A DNA stretch of 28,494 nucleotides from a virus. Under the pieces are notes generated by a model. That model saw only the letters and a program-made list of their open reading frames with translations. It was not told the origin of the DNA and did no database searches. Below, in pieces: positions 3,365 to 23,858 of the stretch (the first letter of the stretch is position 1; each line of letters begins with the position of its first letter). A program made the translations under genes and the position numbers. The stretch covers positions 1-28,494 of the IMG/VR virus record IMGVR_UViG_3300030107_001164; one strand, written 5' to 3'.

Positions 3365-4254
3365 TATGCTACGGTAGCTGAACCAGGATTAACAGGGAAA
3401 TCTCCTATTGGACCATCCGTTTGTATATCCCAATTTGTTGTTGGTGTGTTTTCTGGTGTTGGTGTGTTTACAGGTTTCTCAGAGCTTGCGCTATAAGTCT
3501 GCTGTTGAGGTCTGTTAGACATATAGTTGTTATAAGCTCCCATACCTGCACCTAATATATCTGTAAAGCTTAGACCAGCAGAGACTTGCGGTGTCATTGG
3601 TCCGTACATTTCTGTAGGTAAAGGAGCCTCAGGTTTAACTGGATCTTGGAAAGGTCTTGGCTCATACAAGCGTACAGAGTTAGCTTTGTTCTTAGCTGAA
3701 ATGTTTGCAGCTCTCATAGCAGCTAGTTTATCTCCAATTCTAAACTCTCTAGTAATCAATCTATTACTAGCATTTTCCATATATTGTTGATTATATGTAT
3801 TATGTATTCTCTCTACACTTCTACCTACTTGACCACTTGATACTCTCTTAACAGAATCTGCTAAAGCTTTCTGCTTAATTGTCTCTAATTGCATTGTGTC
3901 AGCAGCTTCTTCTTCATAAAACCTAGCGTTTAAATCTGCGTACTCTCTACCTAAAGCTTCTGTAGCGTTAATAGAAGTCTCAGTTTTTAGCTTTGCTGCG
4001 TTGCTTTTTAACTTATTCTCATACTGCCTTAAGTCTGATACATACTGAGAAGTCTTAAGGTAGTTCTTTTGATCTACTGTATGCTGTCTAAAATTCTGTT
4101 TATCAGTCTCTAGTTTCTTCCTTATAGCGTTCCTACTATCTGCTTCCCATTTAGCCCAAGCTTGTCTATAAGCTCCAGTTTTCTGAGCTGAAGTGCTCAG
4201 TATATTCATCCCGAAATTCATGAAACCGCCCATAGCGGGTGAAAATAAATCCAT
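3364..4254 (-). CDS. Internal virion protein, gp14-like
   Basis: This 296-residue protein lies directly after tail tube B, overlapping it as TAATG at 4254, and its own stop overlaps the next start the same way. The N-terminus is hydrophobic and rich in Met, Gly and Phe (residues 1-25). A long charged helical region follows to about residue 200, rich in Lys, Gln, Ala and Arg. The last ~90 residues are rich in Pro, Thr and Asn. T7 gp14 (196 residues) is ejected first and forms the outer-membrane channel; this protein has the same place in the order and the same helical, Ala/Gln-rich look, but is longer. No catalytic motif is visible. The assignment relies on synteny more than on sequence. Confidence 0.6.
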   Translation of the reverse strand: MDLFSPAMGGFMNFGMNILSTSAQKTGAYRQAWAKWEADSRNAIRKKLETDKQNFRQHTVDQKNYLKTSQYVSDLRQYENKLKSNAAKLKTETSINATEALGREYADLNARFYEEEAADTMQLETIKQKALADSVKRVSSGQVGRSVERIHNTYNQQYMENASNRLITREFRIGDKLAAMRAANISAKNKANSVRLYEPRPFQDPVKPEAPLPTEMYGPMTPQVSAGLSFTDILGAGMGAYNNYMSNRPQQQTYSASSEKPVNTPTPENTPTTNWDIQTDGPIGDFPVNPGSATVA

Positions 4255-7139
4255 TACTGATACTTTCTAGCGACATCGTAATACAAGCCAGTCCATTCTA
4301 GAGCAACAAACTTGGCTTGATCCATACTGTCGTTGACTACTTCTATCGTAACTTGATCGTTCTTACTTTGTACAAATGATCTGAATTTAGCCTCATCGAA
4401 GTCAGAGACTGTACCTACAGTGATGTTGGCATTTAGAGGATCTCTACGATCAAATTCATAAGTAACTTTATCTCTAAATTTAGGAGTAACATCTACTTGG
4501 AAGTATCTTGCATCATTGTAGTAAACATCAACATATCGTAACTGAAGGCGACCAGTACGATTACCGATAAAAGTGTTGTCAGTCGCAGTTTTTGAATAGG
4601 GCATGAGCTGAGGAGGCTCAAACTTGAAAGCAAACTTTTCACCAAAGATCCAAGAGCTGCTAGAAAAGTCTCCCAAACTATCGCAAACAAAGCTATTAAC
4701 ACCAGCAGGAACAGTCGCAGCCACAACCCAACGTTTTTCAATTTCGTTAGCATCGTTCTTATCCTTTTTGATAATTACGAATTGACTTTCATTTACTGTG
4801 TAGTATGGCAGCGTTACTGTAGTTTTATTCGTTAAGTTGTTATAAGCAAGCGTAACTATATTACCAACACTTACTCGTACATCAGTTTCAACAGTACTAG
4901 CTAATTGTCTATCTAAAAGAAATAGATCCTTACTTTCTTGTGGTGGTCTAGATGCGTTAAGAGCTTCTAGGTAATATCTTGTTTGACTATTTTCTGTGTA
5001 TTTAGCAACGGTATATAAAGTACCTTCAACGAAATCAGCCCAATACAAACTCTTATTAGGGAAGGTCCATTTAGACCAAGCATTCTGTCTATTGGTTAAA
5101 GAACCTCCAGATGCTTCCCAGAAGAATTGATAAACATATAAAGCATCAGGATCATCTTTACTAAGAGCTATTAGATATTGATCCGTTCTACTAACTGCTA
5201 AAGAGTCTATATTTTTAGGAATATATTTTGGTACTGTTTCAGTAATAACAGCGGTTTGTCCTAAGTTAATACCAACAGTACGGTCAGTAGTTATAAACGT
5301 ATGCAGTCCTGTAAAGTCTCCTTCCTTAACAGGGAAAATAACCTGTGGCCCTACTTGTTGAGGCTTGACATTAGATTCCATTGTGATGGAACTAATACGA
5401 CCTACAGAGGCTGTCTCAGGGCTGAATGTGACGTTATCTCCTGAATATAGTCTGAACTGGTTTTCATTAGAAAATAGGACTAACTCATCCTGTTGCTGTA
5501 AAGCATAGTTAAGAACAGCAACATCATTACTAACTGCTGTTAAATCAATAGGGTCATTATCAGTTACTTGTAAAGCTGACTGTTGCCAGAAATTATAGTA
5601 ATCACCTGCTTCACTGAGAATTATATTCTCTCCACTAATAAACCCTAAACGGTTTTTAAAGAAGACAATATCGTTAATAGCTTCTTCTTCAAAAGAAGGT
5701 CCAGGTAACTCATCAGCATCACCAGCTAAACGTAAAGTCCAACCAGGAATTTTAACTGTTGTAGAACCATCGGTATAGTCAGAACCACTAAAAGGTTGAA
5801 CAGTAAATCTAGTTAAACCATCATCATTCTTGTAGTAAACAAATGAATGAGGCATTGTATTGTCATCTAACTTTCCTTTAGCTCCCCACCCTCCTTTTTC
5901 TTCCCAAGTACCTCTACCATAAGTACCAGCTACAGATGTGTTCTCAGCGTTAAACGTTAGATAATAGGAACTTTGATCTGCTGAACCATCTGGAGCAACA
6001 ATGATTTGATAACCTTCCCAGGATGTTTGAGGTAATTCGACAATACTTGTAACCTGACTAGCAAAACCACTCATCAGAGTGTTACCTCTAGCGTCAGATA
6101 CAACAAACTTTTTAAAGGATCTAGATGCATTAGCTAACCCTAAAAGTATTTGAGAGTCAACTGTTGAGAACGTTAAATGATTACTACTGTCTGCTGTGTT
6201 AAGAGCTGCAGCCAAGTCGGTAGCAATTGTTTGAGTACTTACTGCTGTACCTGACGCTAAAGTTGCTGTAGTTATGTTTGCATCAATAGTATCTCCATTA
6301 TCTAGTTCAATTGATACTTCATACTTAGTTGCATAGTCAACCAACTTCACCCATATCTGAGCCTTAATAGGTACGTAAGCATTGCTGATATATCCAATGT
6401 TATATCTAGTTAAAGTTTCAGAACTGTCGTAAGCAGTTTTCTTTTGAGTATTAGTTATAAATACAAAGTCTTGGAAAGAAGTAGCTCTAAATCTATCTCT
6501 AGCTCTACCTGACCCTCTGAAGTATTCAAGGTTTGCAGTAGTAATACCAGCAAAGGTTTGTTCGACTGGTACAACCGTAGGAAGTACACCACTAATAGGT
6601 TCTACATCTGACAAACCACTTACATAAGTACGACTAGCTGCAGCAGTCATTGTGATGCTAGAACCTGCTGCAGTACAGTTTTTATCAATAGTAATTTTAT
6701 TAGTACCTATCTCTTTAATTACAGACCCTGCTGGTATGTTCGTACCACTAACGCCATTACCAACAAATAAGTCTGTTGTACCTCCTGAAGATATTGTTAT
6801 AACTGGAGAAGCATTAACTGTAGTTATAGTCTTGGTTACTGTATAACTATCATCGACTATTGCTAAAACAAAACGCTCATCAGTACTTCTGTTATAAACG
6901 TAGTACCAAGCTTCATCCCATTTAACAGTACCAGTAGGTGCGTTACCTCCATGATTAGTTGTTAAGTTATCTATTCGTTTTACAGGTACGCTACCTAATC
7001 GTTTTTTAAGTCCTTCAACTAAATCACAATTTCCATTTTCAAGAGTTTTAGCAAACCCAGGTAAAACAAAACTTGTTGCTTGTTGATTGACTCCTTTATT
7101 AAGAGGACCAATAACTTGACTATAAAGTTCTCTAGACAT
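4254..7139 (-). CDS. Tail tubular protein B (nozzle), gp12-like, with an inserted beta domain
   Basis: This is the long nozzle protein of the short tail, 961 residues compared with 794 in T7 gp12. The N-terminus (GPLNKGVNQQAT, residues 11-22, then a GNCDLVEGLKKRLGS stretch) is the typical opening of podovirus nozzle proteins, in which the chain binds the tail-tube A ring. The following repeats are beta-rich, with many aromatic residues and FxN/FxD turns. Residues about 106-168 look like an insertion: an Ig-like/adhesin-type module with an NIPAGSVIKEIG signature, Thr/Ser-rich and followed by alternating hydrophobic residues. This module type is common on exposed faces of phage structural proteins. 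Start and stop both use TAATG overlaps with the neighbours. Confidence 0.88.
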   Translation of the reverse strand: MSRELYSQVIGPLNKGVNQQATSFVLPGFAKTLENGNCDLVEGLKKRLGSVPVKRIDNLTTNHGGNAPTGTVKWDEAWYYVYNRSTDERFVLAIVDDSYTVTKTITTVNASPVITISSGGTTDLFVGNGVSGTNIPAGSVIKEIGTNKITIDKNCTAAGSSITMTAAASRTYVSGLSDVEPISGVLPTVVPVEQTFAGITTANLEYFRGSGRARDRFRATSFQDFVFITNTQKKTAYDSSETLTRYNIGYISNAYVPIKAQIWVKLVDYATKYEVSIELDNGDTIDANITTATLASGTAVSTQTIATDLAAALNTADSSNHLTFSTVDSQILLGLANASRSFKKFVVSDARGNTLMSGFASQVTSIVELPQTSWEGYQIIVAPDGSADQSSYYLTFNAENTSVAGTYGRGTWEEKGGWGAKGKLDDNTMPHSFVYYKNDDGLTRFTVQPFSGSDYTDGSTTVKIPGWTLRLAGDADELPGPSFEEEAINDIVFFKNRLGFISGENIILSEAGDYYNFWQQSALQVTDNDPIDLTAVSNDVAVLNYALQQQDELVLFSNENQFRLYSGDNVTFSPETASVGRISSITMESNVKPQQVGPQVIFPVKEGDFTGLHTFITTDRTVGINLGQTAVITETVPKYIPKNIDSLAVSRTDQYLIALSKDDPDALYVYQFFWEASGGSLTNRQNAWSKWTFPNKSLYWADFVEGTLYTVAKYTENSQTRYYLEALNASRPPQESKDLFLLDRQLASTVETDVRVSVGNIVTLAYNNLTNKTTVTLPYYTVNESQFVIIKKDKNDANEIEKRWVVAATVPAGVNSFVCDSLGDFSSSSWIFGEKFAFKFEPPQLMPYSKTATDNTFIGNRTGRLQLRYVDVYYNDARYFQVDVTPKFRDKVTYEFDRRDPLNANITVGTVSDFDEAKFRSFVQSKNDQVTIEVVNDSMDQAKFVALEWTGLYYDVARKYQ

Positions 7140-22390: not shown

Positions 22391-22409
22391 TACAATACAG
22401 TGGTACATT
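22391..22409 (+). promoter_or_regulatory. Candidate promoter of the plus-strand cassette
   Basis: TACAAT at 22391-22396 is a fair -10 element and would give an 18-base leader before the ATG at 22421. A second, extended -10-like element AGTGGTACATT follows at 22399-22409; its first nine bases recur exactly before the riboswitch at 23080. Confidence 0.4.
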
Positions 22410-22420
22410 CTCATAACCTA

Positions 22421-22786
22421 ATGAAATTCGCAATCGCTCTAGCTGCCCTGCTAGGTGTAGGTACAGCTCCTGCCCTTGCTGGTAATTTTTACTTAAACGC
22501 TGAATCAAACTCCAGCTTCACTGGGTCTGATTACACATCTACAAATACCGATCTGCATATTGGCTATGAAGGAGGCAACGACACTGCAACTTACTATATC
22601 CAAGGAGGACCAACAATCTCAGCTATTGATGGAGCTGATGATAATGACACTAATGTATCAGGTAAGCTTGGTGGCTCAGTCGCTGCTACTGATAAGTTAG
22701 ACATCTATGGAGAGATTGCTCTTCAAACAGCAGAAGATGTTGACAACAGCTATGCAACCAAAATTGGAGCAAAGTTCAAGTTCTAA
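22421..22786 (+). CDS. Secreted small outer-membrane beta-barrel-like protein
   Basis: I start at the ATG at 22421 because it begins a clean signal peptide: MKFAIALAALLGVGTAPALA, with cleavage expected after ALA at residue 20. A GTG in frame at 22400 is less likely. The mature chain of about 100 residues has alternating polar/hydrophobic strands with Gly/Asn/Asp turns (for example LHIGYEGG, ATYYIQGG, LDIYGEIAL) and ends in KIGAKFKF. A terminal Phe after alternating residues is the signal read by the outer-membrane assembly machinery. It would make a small barrel of perhaps 6-8 strands in the host outer membrane. It is the first gene of the plus-strand cassette and looks host-like, not phage structural. 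I do not recognise a named family. Confidence 0.75.
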   Translation: MKFAIALAALLGVGTAPALAGNFYLNAESNSSFTGSDYTSTNTDLHIGYEGGNDTATYYIQGGPTISAIDGADDNDTNVSGKLGGSVAATDKLDIYGEIALQTAEDVDNSYATKIGAKFKF

Positions 22787-22895
22787 AGCTTCGCATGAAA
22801 ATTGCAACTGCCCTCACTGCACTGAGCTAAGACGACAACAAGAACGCTATGCTCAGTGGCAGAAGCACGCTAATGAACGTATTGGTCAACTATGA
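22752..22895 (+). CDS. Small Cys-containing hypothetical protein (47 aa)
   Basis: This frame starts at the ATG at 22752, inside the end of the barrel gene, and its TGA overlaps the HLI start as ATGA. The 47-residue product has a CNCPHC motif near the middle followed by an Arg/Gln/Glu-rich helix (ELRRQQERYAQWQKHANERI). The frame continues upstream to an ATG at 22707, but that would lie deeper in the barrel gene. The tight coupling to HLI and the plausible helix suggest it is expressed. The CxCxxC group might bind a metal; no function can be stated. Confidence 0.5.
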   Translation: MQPKLEQSSSSKASHENCNCPHCTELRRQQERYAQWQKHANERIGQL

Positions 22896-23068
22896 CTTCT
22901 AACATTTATTCCAAAGAACCCCCTATTGAGGTCATGTCCCATCACAACCACGAAGGAGATCCTCTCCACATTGCAGAGGAACTCAATGGCCGCCTAGCTA
23001 TGATGGGCTTCATCGCAGCTCTAGGTGCTTATGTCACTACTGGTCAAATCATCCCAAATATCTTCTAG
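22892..23068 (+). CDS. hli: High-light-inducible protein (HLI/Hlip)
   Basis: A 58-residue single-helix thylakoid protein of the chlorophyll a/b-binding family. The signature AEELNGRLAMMGFIAALGAYVTTGQ (residues 28-52) is unmistakable: E30, N32 and R34 are the chlorophyll-binding and salt-bridge residues, followed by a membrane helix. In the host these proteins protect photosystem II and chlorophyll-synthesis complexes under light stress; in cyanophages they are thought to keep photosynthesis running during infection. It overlaps the preceding Cys protein as ATGA. It lies on the opposite strand from the rest of the phage genes, separate from any visible psbA. Confidence 0.95.
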   Translation: MTSNIYSKEPPIEVMSHHNHEGDPLHIAEELNGRLAMMGFIAALGAYVTTGQIIPNIF

Positions 23069-23079
23069 ACAGTTTCTAG

Positions 23080-23090
23080 AGTGGTACAAT
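23080..23090 (+). promoter_or_regulatory. Extended -10 promoter before the riboswitch
   Basis: AGTGGTACAAT contains TGG directly before TACAAT (23085-23090), the extended -10 form of host sigma70 promoters. Transcription would start near 23097, about 23 bases before the riboswitch stem P1. Two TTCTAGA copies lie just upstream (23063-23069 and 23074-23080) in place of a clear -35. Confidence 0.5.
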
Positions 23091-23118
23091 AGTAGGTAGC
23101 AACGACTACCAGATCTGA

Positions 23119-23200
23119 TAGCCTCTGCGTACGTTCATCTCACCTTTGAGACGCAGGCAACCTAACGATGGAACGGGCGTTAGGAAGTTAAGAGGCTCCC
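23119..23200 (+). ncRNA. Candidate glutamine riboswitch, 'downstream-peptide' type
   Basis: The RNA folds by eye into a compact junction. P1 is AGCCTCT (23120-23126) with AGAGGCT (23191-23197). Inside are CTGCGT (23125-23130; its first two bases are shared with P1) with ACGCAG (23151-23156), a TCTCA/TGAGA hairpin (23138-23142 and 23147-23151; the last base is shared) and a 7-bp hairpin CCTAACG/CGTTAGG (23161-23167 and 23178-23184). The conserved-looking stretches CGTTCATCT (23132-23140) and GGAAGT (23183-23188) resemble the core of glnA and downstream-peptide RNAs, which bind L-glutamine in cyanobacteria. P1 includes the AGAGG ribosome-binding site of the peptide that starts at 23201, so ligand binding could block its translation. 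A covariance-model search was not possible here. Confidence 0.75.
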
Positions 23201-23242
23201 ATGACTAGACTCGTCTATCGTGGTGTTGTTTACTACAAGTAA
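23201..23242 (+). CDS. 13-residue riboswitch-controlled peptide (YRG type)
   Basis: A very short frame, MTRLVYRGVVYYK, follows the riboswitch directly, with AAGAGG five bases before its ATG. The LxYRGVxY pattern is the start of the cyanobacterial DUF4278 family of small proteins, and short peptides of this kind are what sit behind downstream-peptide RNAs. A terminator begins 23 bases after the stop, so this is a complete mini-transcript. The peptide is shorter than usual for such ORFs. Its role is unknown; a small regulator of a host nitrogen-metabolism enzyme is one possibility. Confidence 0.65.
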   Translation: MTRLVYRGVVYYK

Positions 23243-23265
23243 GCACACTAACCACATATCGGATT

Positions 23266-23296
23266 GACCCTCAGTTTTCTGGGGGTCTTTCTGTTT
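23266..23296 (+). terminator. Intrinsic terminator of the plus-strand cassette
   Basis: A 9-bp stem GACCCTCAG/CTGGGGGTC (23266-23274 and 23279-23287, one T-G pair) with a TTTT loop is followed by TTTCTGTTT. It ends the riboswitch/peptide transcript and separates it from the convergent minus-strand genes. Confidence 0.85.
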
Positions 23297-23432
23297 CCCA
23301 ATGATCGATCAAATTTCTTTTGACCTCTTTCTCTTTGTCTTGCTCCCAGTGCTCCTTCTTTGCTATGCCATCTATCTTCTCAAGATGGTCAAGTAATTCA
23401 TAGGCTCTGGAGTCCTTCCTCTTCTTCTCCAT
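23271..23432 (-). CDS. Small charged hypothetical protein (53 aa)
   Basis: I choose the ATG at 23432, which has GAGGAAG four bases upstream; the frame is open further to 23453. The product is very rich in Lys, Glu and Asp, with a predicted helix through YELLDHLEKIDGIAKKEHW. It overlaps the end of the acidic protein gene upstream by 35 bases, and its stop lies in the stem of the plus-strand terminator. No family is recognised. Being convergent with the cassette and short, it could still be non-coding. Confidence 0.45.
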   Translation of the reverse strand: MEKKRKDSRAYELLDHLEKIDGIAKKEHWEQDKEKEVKRNLIDHWETERPPEN

Positions 23433-23832
23433 CGTCTTCCTCTTCTTCAGCACTTAACGGCTGATTCTGTACGTCATATAACGATACTAAGCGACCATCT
23501 GGACCCATGTAAAAGCAACCAGTGTCCCTTATCTTTGAATAATCATCTTGGAGTAGTTCTATAAATGCACCCACCAACTGCTGACAAGTTCCTGCCTCTA
23601 ATACTGCTTTGTGTAGGTCTGACTGCGCTGCAGCAACTGAGGCTATCCTTTCAGCCTCATCAAACTCCCACACCACCTCATGTGTTGTATCAGCCTCATC
23701 CTCTAGGTACTCCATAGCGTGTATTGATCGCTGCTCTAATACCTTCATTCTTGCTAGAAGCATAGGAAGGTAATCCTTAGCCACTCTACGTAGTGGCATA
23801 TAGAACTTATCTCTTGCTGTTAAAGCTGGCAT
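23398..23832 (-). CDS. Acidic hypothetical protein downstream of the Fur-box promoter
   Basis: I start at the ATG at 23832 (MPALTARDKFYMPL); a GTG at 23841 is in frame. The 144-residue product has a helical body (about 10-90) with a Leu/Met/Arg-rich first half, a CQQLVGAFIELLQDDYSKIRDTGCFYMGPDGRLVSLYD segment, and a very acidic tail (EEEEDDGEEEEG). I do not recognise the family. The 280 bases upstream hold two Fur-like boxes around a TATAAT element, and no ordinary ribosome-binding site is next to its ATG. It and the small charged gene behind it are the only genes placed to be controlled by those boxes. Confidence 0.65.
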   Translation of the reverse strand: MPALTARDKFYMPLRRVAKDYLPMLLARMKVLEQRSIHAMEYLEDEADTTHEVVWEFDEAERIASVAAAQSDLHKAVLEAGTCQQLVGAFIELLQDDYSKIRDTGCFYMGPDGRLVSLYDVQNQPLSAEEEEDDGEEEEGLQSL

Positions 23833-23858
23833 ACTTAACACAATACCCTAATTACAAT

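Follow-up and report, generated by a model that had tools for sequence, protein, structure and literature searches.

The Glutamine-II class of RNA (type 2 glutamine riboswitch, or Downstream-peptide) and its presence in phages are both known, and the original Downstream-peptide description reportedly noted one cyanophage copy. Glutamine riboswitches have already been reported in marine phages (PMC9004378), those of T4-like cyanophages are mentioned in PMC9602691 and PMC9964418, and in hosts the type 2 class is known together with DUF4278 genes, within marine picocyanobacteria only according to a 2018 review (PMC6316151). Selective binding of L-glutamine was shown for other copies of the class (PMC6316151; PMC6698751), and that review states that glutamine activates expression through a type 2 riboswitch of Prochlorococcus (PMC6316151). 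In the crystal study, the ligand stabilises a pseudoknot and is supposed to displace a structure that occludes the ribosome-binding site (PMC6698751). In the searchable literature, we found no regular pairing of the riboswitch with a YRG micropeptide across cyanopodoviruses, no single-repeat form of 13 residues and no phage helix pairing with the Shine-Dalgarno (SD) sequence.

The window considered here, the whole 28,494-nt stretch of viral record IMGVR_UViG_3300030107_001164, belongs to a podovirus akin to Prochlorococcus phage P-RSP2 (79.7% DNA identity in the portal gene). Its replication and virion genes lie on the minus strand, and a short plus-strand island carries an outer-membrane-protein-like (OMP-like) gene, a high-light-inducible protein gene (hli), the riboswitch with its peptide and a terminator (Table 1). 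Throughout the window's clade the module is an independent unit on the strand opposite to the flanking genes. A T7-type RNA polymerase was found neither in the window, which is a partial genome, nor in the P-RSP2 record, and is present in P-SSP7, S-TIP37 and NATL2A-133; the P-RSP2-like clade probably relies on the host polymerase.

Table 1. Positions in the window of the riboswitch module and its upstream neighbours.
Feature	Position	Strand	Basis or remark
Cyanophage OMP-like gene, same cassette	22400..22786	+	PF24653, 132 bits
hli, directly upstream, frequent clade neighbour	22892..23068	+	phrog_178, E 2e-20
Extended -10 TGGTACAAT (TGnTACAAT)	23082..23090	+	Conserved in 15 aligned clade sequences; putative host-RNAP promoter
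5' palindrome GTAGCAACGACTAC at expected transcription start	23096..23109	+	Putative RNA hairpin and/or NtcA-type GTAN8TAC box
22-nt segment, 5' palindrome to aptamer, carrying anti-SD	23110..23131	+	4-8 nt in hosts (spacing counts)
Anti-SD strand AGCCUCU of helix P0	23120..23126	+	Folding; pairing in relatives
Glutamine-II (type 2 glutamine, Downstream-peptide) aptamer	23129..23184	+	RF01704, 52.8 bits
Pseudoknot strand 1 CGUUC (partner GAACG, 23171-23175)	23132..23136	+	CGUUU/AAACG in 3 phage copies
Aptamer hairpin P1 (Huang 2019 naming), 23138-23142/23147-23151	23138..23151	+	RF01704 alignment; many compensatory forms
Aptamer stem P2 (Huang 2019 naming), 23161-23167/23178-23184	23161..23184	+	RF01704 alignment
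Shine-Dalgarno AAGAGG, mostly inside P0	23190..23195	+	Folding
SD strand AGAGGCU of helix P0	23191..23197	+	Folding; pairing in relatives
13-codon ORF MTRLVYRGVVYYK + TAA, single YRG repeat	23201..23242	+	pN/pS; aligns with last host repeat
Intrinsic terminator GACCCTCAGTTTTCTGGGGGTC then TTTCTGTTTC	23266..23287	+	Fold energy in isolation about -16 to -17 kcal/mol

Several elements had been recognised beforehand from the letters alone. The first-pass annotation named an extended -10, a 13-codon YRG peptide and a terminator in a phage, all of which were recovered at the positions of Table 1, and it suggested a covariance-model search of Rfam, which returned a strong Glutamine-II match. When the window was searched in full with the 4227 families of Rfam, RF01704 was the sole match, covering the full model (1-60) with 52.8 bits against a gathering score of 33 bits and an E-value of 2.6e-10 for the window. 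The features of the class are found in the window, namely the pseudoknot CGUUC/GAACG, whose second strand sits in the loop of aptamer stem P2, and the two stems, with compensatory change among phages (about 30 different paired forms of P2 in the phage copies). The window aptamer belongs to the Glutamine-II class, and by analogy with other copies it would bind glutamine. The aptamer of Prochlorococcus RS01, known from a crystal structure, was considered as possible phage DNA, as it shares CGCAUG with P-SSP7, and was rejected: RS01 is matched by 193 of the 266 genomes in the genus of one Prochlorococcus genome (G119; for example L366 and L368-L377) and exactly by no viral contig. Host genomes commonly carry RS01, and the ORF that follows it there starts MNNLL...IRE, unlike the LxYRGxxY proteins.

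In 14 relatives the extended -10 reads TGGTAnnnT or a close variant, although the preceding 3' region of hli varies; as a generic sigma-70 consensus scan did not exceed chance, the promoter call rests on this conservation, and the promoter would be read by host RNA polymerase. The palindrome pattern GTAGCAANNNCTAC has a single occurrence in the window. Of 83 distinct host copies, 63 show it shortly before the aptamer; the host stem still pairs after a C-G to T-A change, and the GTAN8TAC spacing is N8 in 74 of the 83. The window palindrome can be an RNA hairpin, an NtcA-type box or both; among host genes, PMM1846 has an NtcA motif in its promoter (PMC6316151). Because the palindrome is common to the window and most host copies, the whole leader appears to be derived from the host. 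At the other end of the transcript, related phages carry unrelated hairpin-T sequences at the terminator position, except L172 and L220, in which no clear terminator hairpin was seen at the corresponding position.

The first-pass annotation had also placed stem P1 over the ribosome-binding site. A helix covering most of the SD does exist, designated here as P0, but it lies outside the published aptamer, in which P1 is a different stem. When the window RNA was folded up to the ATG, P0 had a pairing probability of about 1 and the SD was hidden, while in the full-transcript fold structure between aptamer and coding region prevailed and P0 dropped to 0.01-0.19. The pairing of P0 is preserved across sequence change in relatives, and phage clades differ wholly in its sequence (AGCCTCT/AGAGGCT, AGCCTCC/GGAGGCT, TCTCCATAG/CTATGGAGA and TGATCTCCG/CGGAGATCA). 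In 65 distinct phage copies the P0 score, which should be read as a guide rather than as a probability, as partner shuffling splits related sequences, was 14.3; shuffled partners gave 11.1, with a maximum of 11.9 over 200 shuffles. In 83 host copies it was 10.1 against 10.4, without any excess. No clear P0 was seen in some phage clades, nor in the host copies as a set. These comparisons support a helix hiding the ribosome-binding site in phages and not in host copies, and P0 is a good candidate for the occluding structure supposed in the crystal study. The window also allows another pairing, CTGCGT:ACGCAG, which was discarded for want of conservation in the relatives L016-L018.

Taken together, the locus is likely to be a glutamine-ON translational switch that makes a mimic of host YRG proteins. 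An autonomous mini-gene, acquired from a cyanobacterial host, would be transcribed from a host RNA polymerase promoter into an mRNA of roughly 190 nt, the leader of which contains the Glutamine-II aptamer. In the absence of glutamine, the anti-SD strand 5' of the aptamer would pair with the SD 3' of it and block translation; abundant glutamine would stabilise the pseudoknot, which would compete with P0, free the SD and permit synthesis of the 13-residue peptide. Geometry bears on the direction of this switch. In three phage copies P0 abuts the aptamer with linkers of 2 nt and 0 nt. The aptamer begins within the pseudoknot helix and ends at the base of the second stem. With its two ends so placed and the linkers so short, P0 and the folded aptamer would be hard to hold together, and their mutual exclusion therefore favours an ON switch. 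In the window the linkers of 5 nt and 6 nt permit coexistence, so the ON direction is unproven by geometry there. This is the ground for an OFF switch, which we consider unlikely: the glutamine-bound aptamer and the flanking P0 would form together, the SD would be clamped and the peptide would be made at low glutamine. It also has the support of a fold in which P0 persists with the pseudoknot and CGCAG held unpaired (-36.7 kcal/mol, against -28.7 without the anti-SD). The improbable coexistence in clades with 2-nt and 0-nt linkers and the activation of a Prochlorococcus type 2 riboswitch by glutamine (PMC6316151) speak for the ON direction.

The product of the proposed glutamine-ON switch would be the 13-residue peptide. 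For codons 2-12 of 11 distinct sequences, obtained from 15 distinct clade regions, pN/pS was 0.07 in the reading frame, and the two frames to either side gave 1.86 and 0.63, from which it follows that the ORF is, as judged by substitution pattern, a translated gene under strong purifying selection. The consensus in the clade is MT[RK]LVYRGV[VT]YY[KR], at times with 2-3 extra residues. In hosts, the riboswitch copies stand before genes for proteins of about 33-57 aa that contain two to three YRG repeats, and a YRG-type ORF lies downstream in 118 of 120 host copies. The likeness to host DUF4278 proteins, a comparison proposed in the first reading of the sequence, is seen in the alignment of the phage peptide with the last host repeat, LxYRGVxYxK. 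Against an HMM of the host repeats, only 1 of 2000 shuffles scored higher than the 13-mer. The Pfam DUF4278 scan (PF14105) cannot be applied to so short a peptide; four longer viral relatives scored 15.4-27.5 bits in it and one passed the cut-off of 25.3. AlphaFold modelled a host three-repeat protein with low confidence (mean pLDDT 67, pTM 0.21), and the local beta-hairpin at its first and last YRG repeats (pLDDT about 75) is a hint only; the phage peptide is probably a single beta-hairpin of this kind.

With regard to function, the single YRG repeat leaves no room for the glutamine synthetase (GS)-binding IF domain, which is absent from the product. The GS inhibitor IF17 does not need its DUF4278 N-terminus for inhibition (PMC6316151), so that GS inhibition of the IF type is improbable for the 13-mer. 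The most economical idea, and the most likely, is that the single-repeat peptide would mimic or compete with the multi-repeat host YRG/DUF4278 proteins, which are under the same riboswitch in uninfected cells. It could also be presumed that the RNA is itself the effector, a decoy or antisense to host RNAs of the Yfr6/Yfr14 type with an incidental ORF, as no other DNA at the locus is as conserved as the aptamer, the initial description of Yfr6 was that of a functional RNA and Yfr14, antisense to it, rises early in phage infection (PMC2518516). The frame-specific pN/pS, the retained SD-ATG spacing and stop, and the terminator directly after the ORF make that improbable, and the early rise of Yfr14 fits loosely with mimicry as well, Yfr6 being YRG-encoding (PMC2518516).

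The phage setting named in the first-pass annotation extends well beyond the window, as the module recurs in cyanopodovirus isolates and viral contigs. The window's own DNA and peptide gave no matches as queries against the phage collection, the element being too short and diverged; a relative's copy, used as query, retrieved the isolates. Eight window-related records exceed the RF01704 cut-off. Viral contigs scanned with a degenerate pattern gave at least 119 stretches, and 79 records were scored with Rfam; among the matches listed, 62 of the 79 passed the cut-off, a YRG ORF followed shortly after the aptamer in 61 of these 62 (the other ends at a contig edge), and none of the 17 non-passing, chance records had one. 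The isolates P-SSP7, NATL2A-133, S-TIP37, S-CBP1 and S-RIP1 exceed the cut-off, each with a YRG ORF, and these ORFs are mostly unannotated in GenBank; P-RSP2 carries the element at 535-587, followed by MKQIKLVYRGVVYYINN.

Two genomic settings can be distinguished. In type A, psbA and/or the OMP gene, the riboswitch with its YRG ORF and the major capsid gene are on one strand; a host-like 5' palindrome was found in none of the distinct type A copies examined. In type B, that of the window, SSB on the minus strand is followed by OMP, usually hli, and the riboswitch with its peptide on the plus strand, and then by a minus-strand gene. In the window the latter lies at 23398-23841 (-), a constant neighbour of the type B module; it has a weak match to a PHD-like antitoxin (17.1 bits, cut-off 27) and no PHROG match. 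The PF24653 OMP-like gene is near the module in both arrangements, which suggests a mobile host-interaction cassette with hli and psbA. In P-SSP7-type phages (L349 at about 4150-4300, L350, L353), the interval from the YRG ORF to the capsid gene contains a hairpin resembling a tRNA T-arm/acceptor, e.g. GGGAGGTGCGAGTCCTCCC, with a conserved GGCATTGGCCCTC...GAGGAYACCC-like stretch 3' of it, neither of which is in the window; tRNA or tmRNA identity of this hairpin was rejected, as neither Rfam nor ARAGORN gave a match.

The type B arrangement persists even where the SSB of a contig shares no more than 38-47% identity with that of the window. Such retention, the compensatory pairing, the purifying selection on the 13 codons and the independently replaced terminators leave little to the view that the locus is a decaying host fragment without function in the phage, very improbable even though a host origin and shortening are apparent in the aptamer, the 5' palindrome and the peptide. 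The weakest alternative, a type 1 (glnA) riboswitch, goes back to the glnA-like conserved stretches of the first reading, and is hardly credible: the stretches CGUUCA, CGCAG and AUGGAACGG are present, but they fit Glutamine-II in full and glnA only below threshold, RF01739 matching at the same place with 25 bits, where its cut-off is 35 and RF01704 scores 28 bits more.

The module, which recurs across the virus group, is probably a real, host-derived viral response to host nitrogen status. A wider formulation can be offered tentatively, as possible rather than probable: that a glutamine-gated micropeptide common to the cyanopodoviruses imitates one host YRG repeat and blocks or replaces the host proteins in infection, with a helix hiding the ribosome-binding site added by the phage, and that in the polymerase-less clade it has become a free-standing unit reading nitrogen via glutamine and possibly NtcA. 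Nitrogen limits much of the ocean inhabited by Prochlorococcus, and glutamine, the immediate product of nitrogen assimilation, appears to be read by a conserved viral gene, the peptide of which seems copied from a nitrogen-responsive protein of the host; this would offer a direct handle on how cyanophage infection is adjusted to nutrient state. Being reduced to one 13-residue repeat and still protected by evolution, the phage gene also provides a route to testing the role of the unexplained YRG/DUF4278 proteins, and the idea is testable because the P-SSP7 copy sits in a cultured model phage.

Among known systems, OM43 phage Melnitz, Pelagibacter phage Mosig and the T4-like cyanophages are likewise marine phages with a glutamine riboswitch; that of the myophage Melnitz is glnA-like and linked to a tmRNA gene, whereas the window has a type 2 riboswitch with a YRG peptide in a podovirus. 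The Synechocystis GS inactivating factor gifB/IF17 also has a glutamine riboswitch before a gene with a DUF4278 N-terminus, but the riboswitch is of the other class, type 1, and the GS-inhibiting C-terminal part is missing from the 13-mer. The P-SSP7-type module (psbA, riboswitch, YRG ORF, major capsid gene) shares the aptamer and the YRG ORF and lies within the late operon of phages that encode an RNA polymerase themselves. Host Yfr6, which encodes a nitrogen-responsive 33-aa peptide, has the same aptamer leader and short YRG ORF, with its own promoter and an independent transcript, of 244 nt against the about 190 nt predicted in the phage, and has an antisense partner, of which no phage counterpart is known. 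Finally, the host Glutamine-II loci of Prochlorococcus and Synechococcus share with the window the aptamer, the pseudoknot, the short YRG/DUF4278 ORF and the 5' palindrome; the phage adds the 22-nt anti-SD segment, without counterpart in hosts, and its ORF has 13 codons and one repeat, against 33-57 aa and two to three repeats in the hosts.
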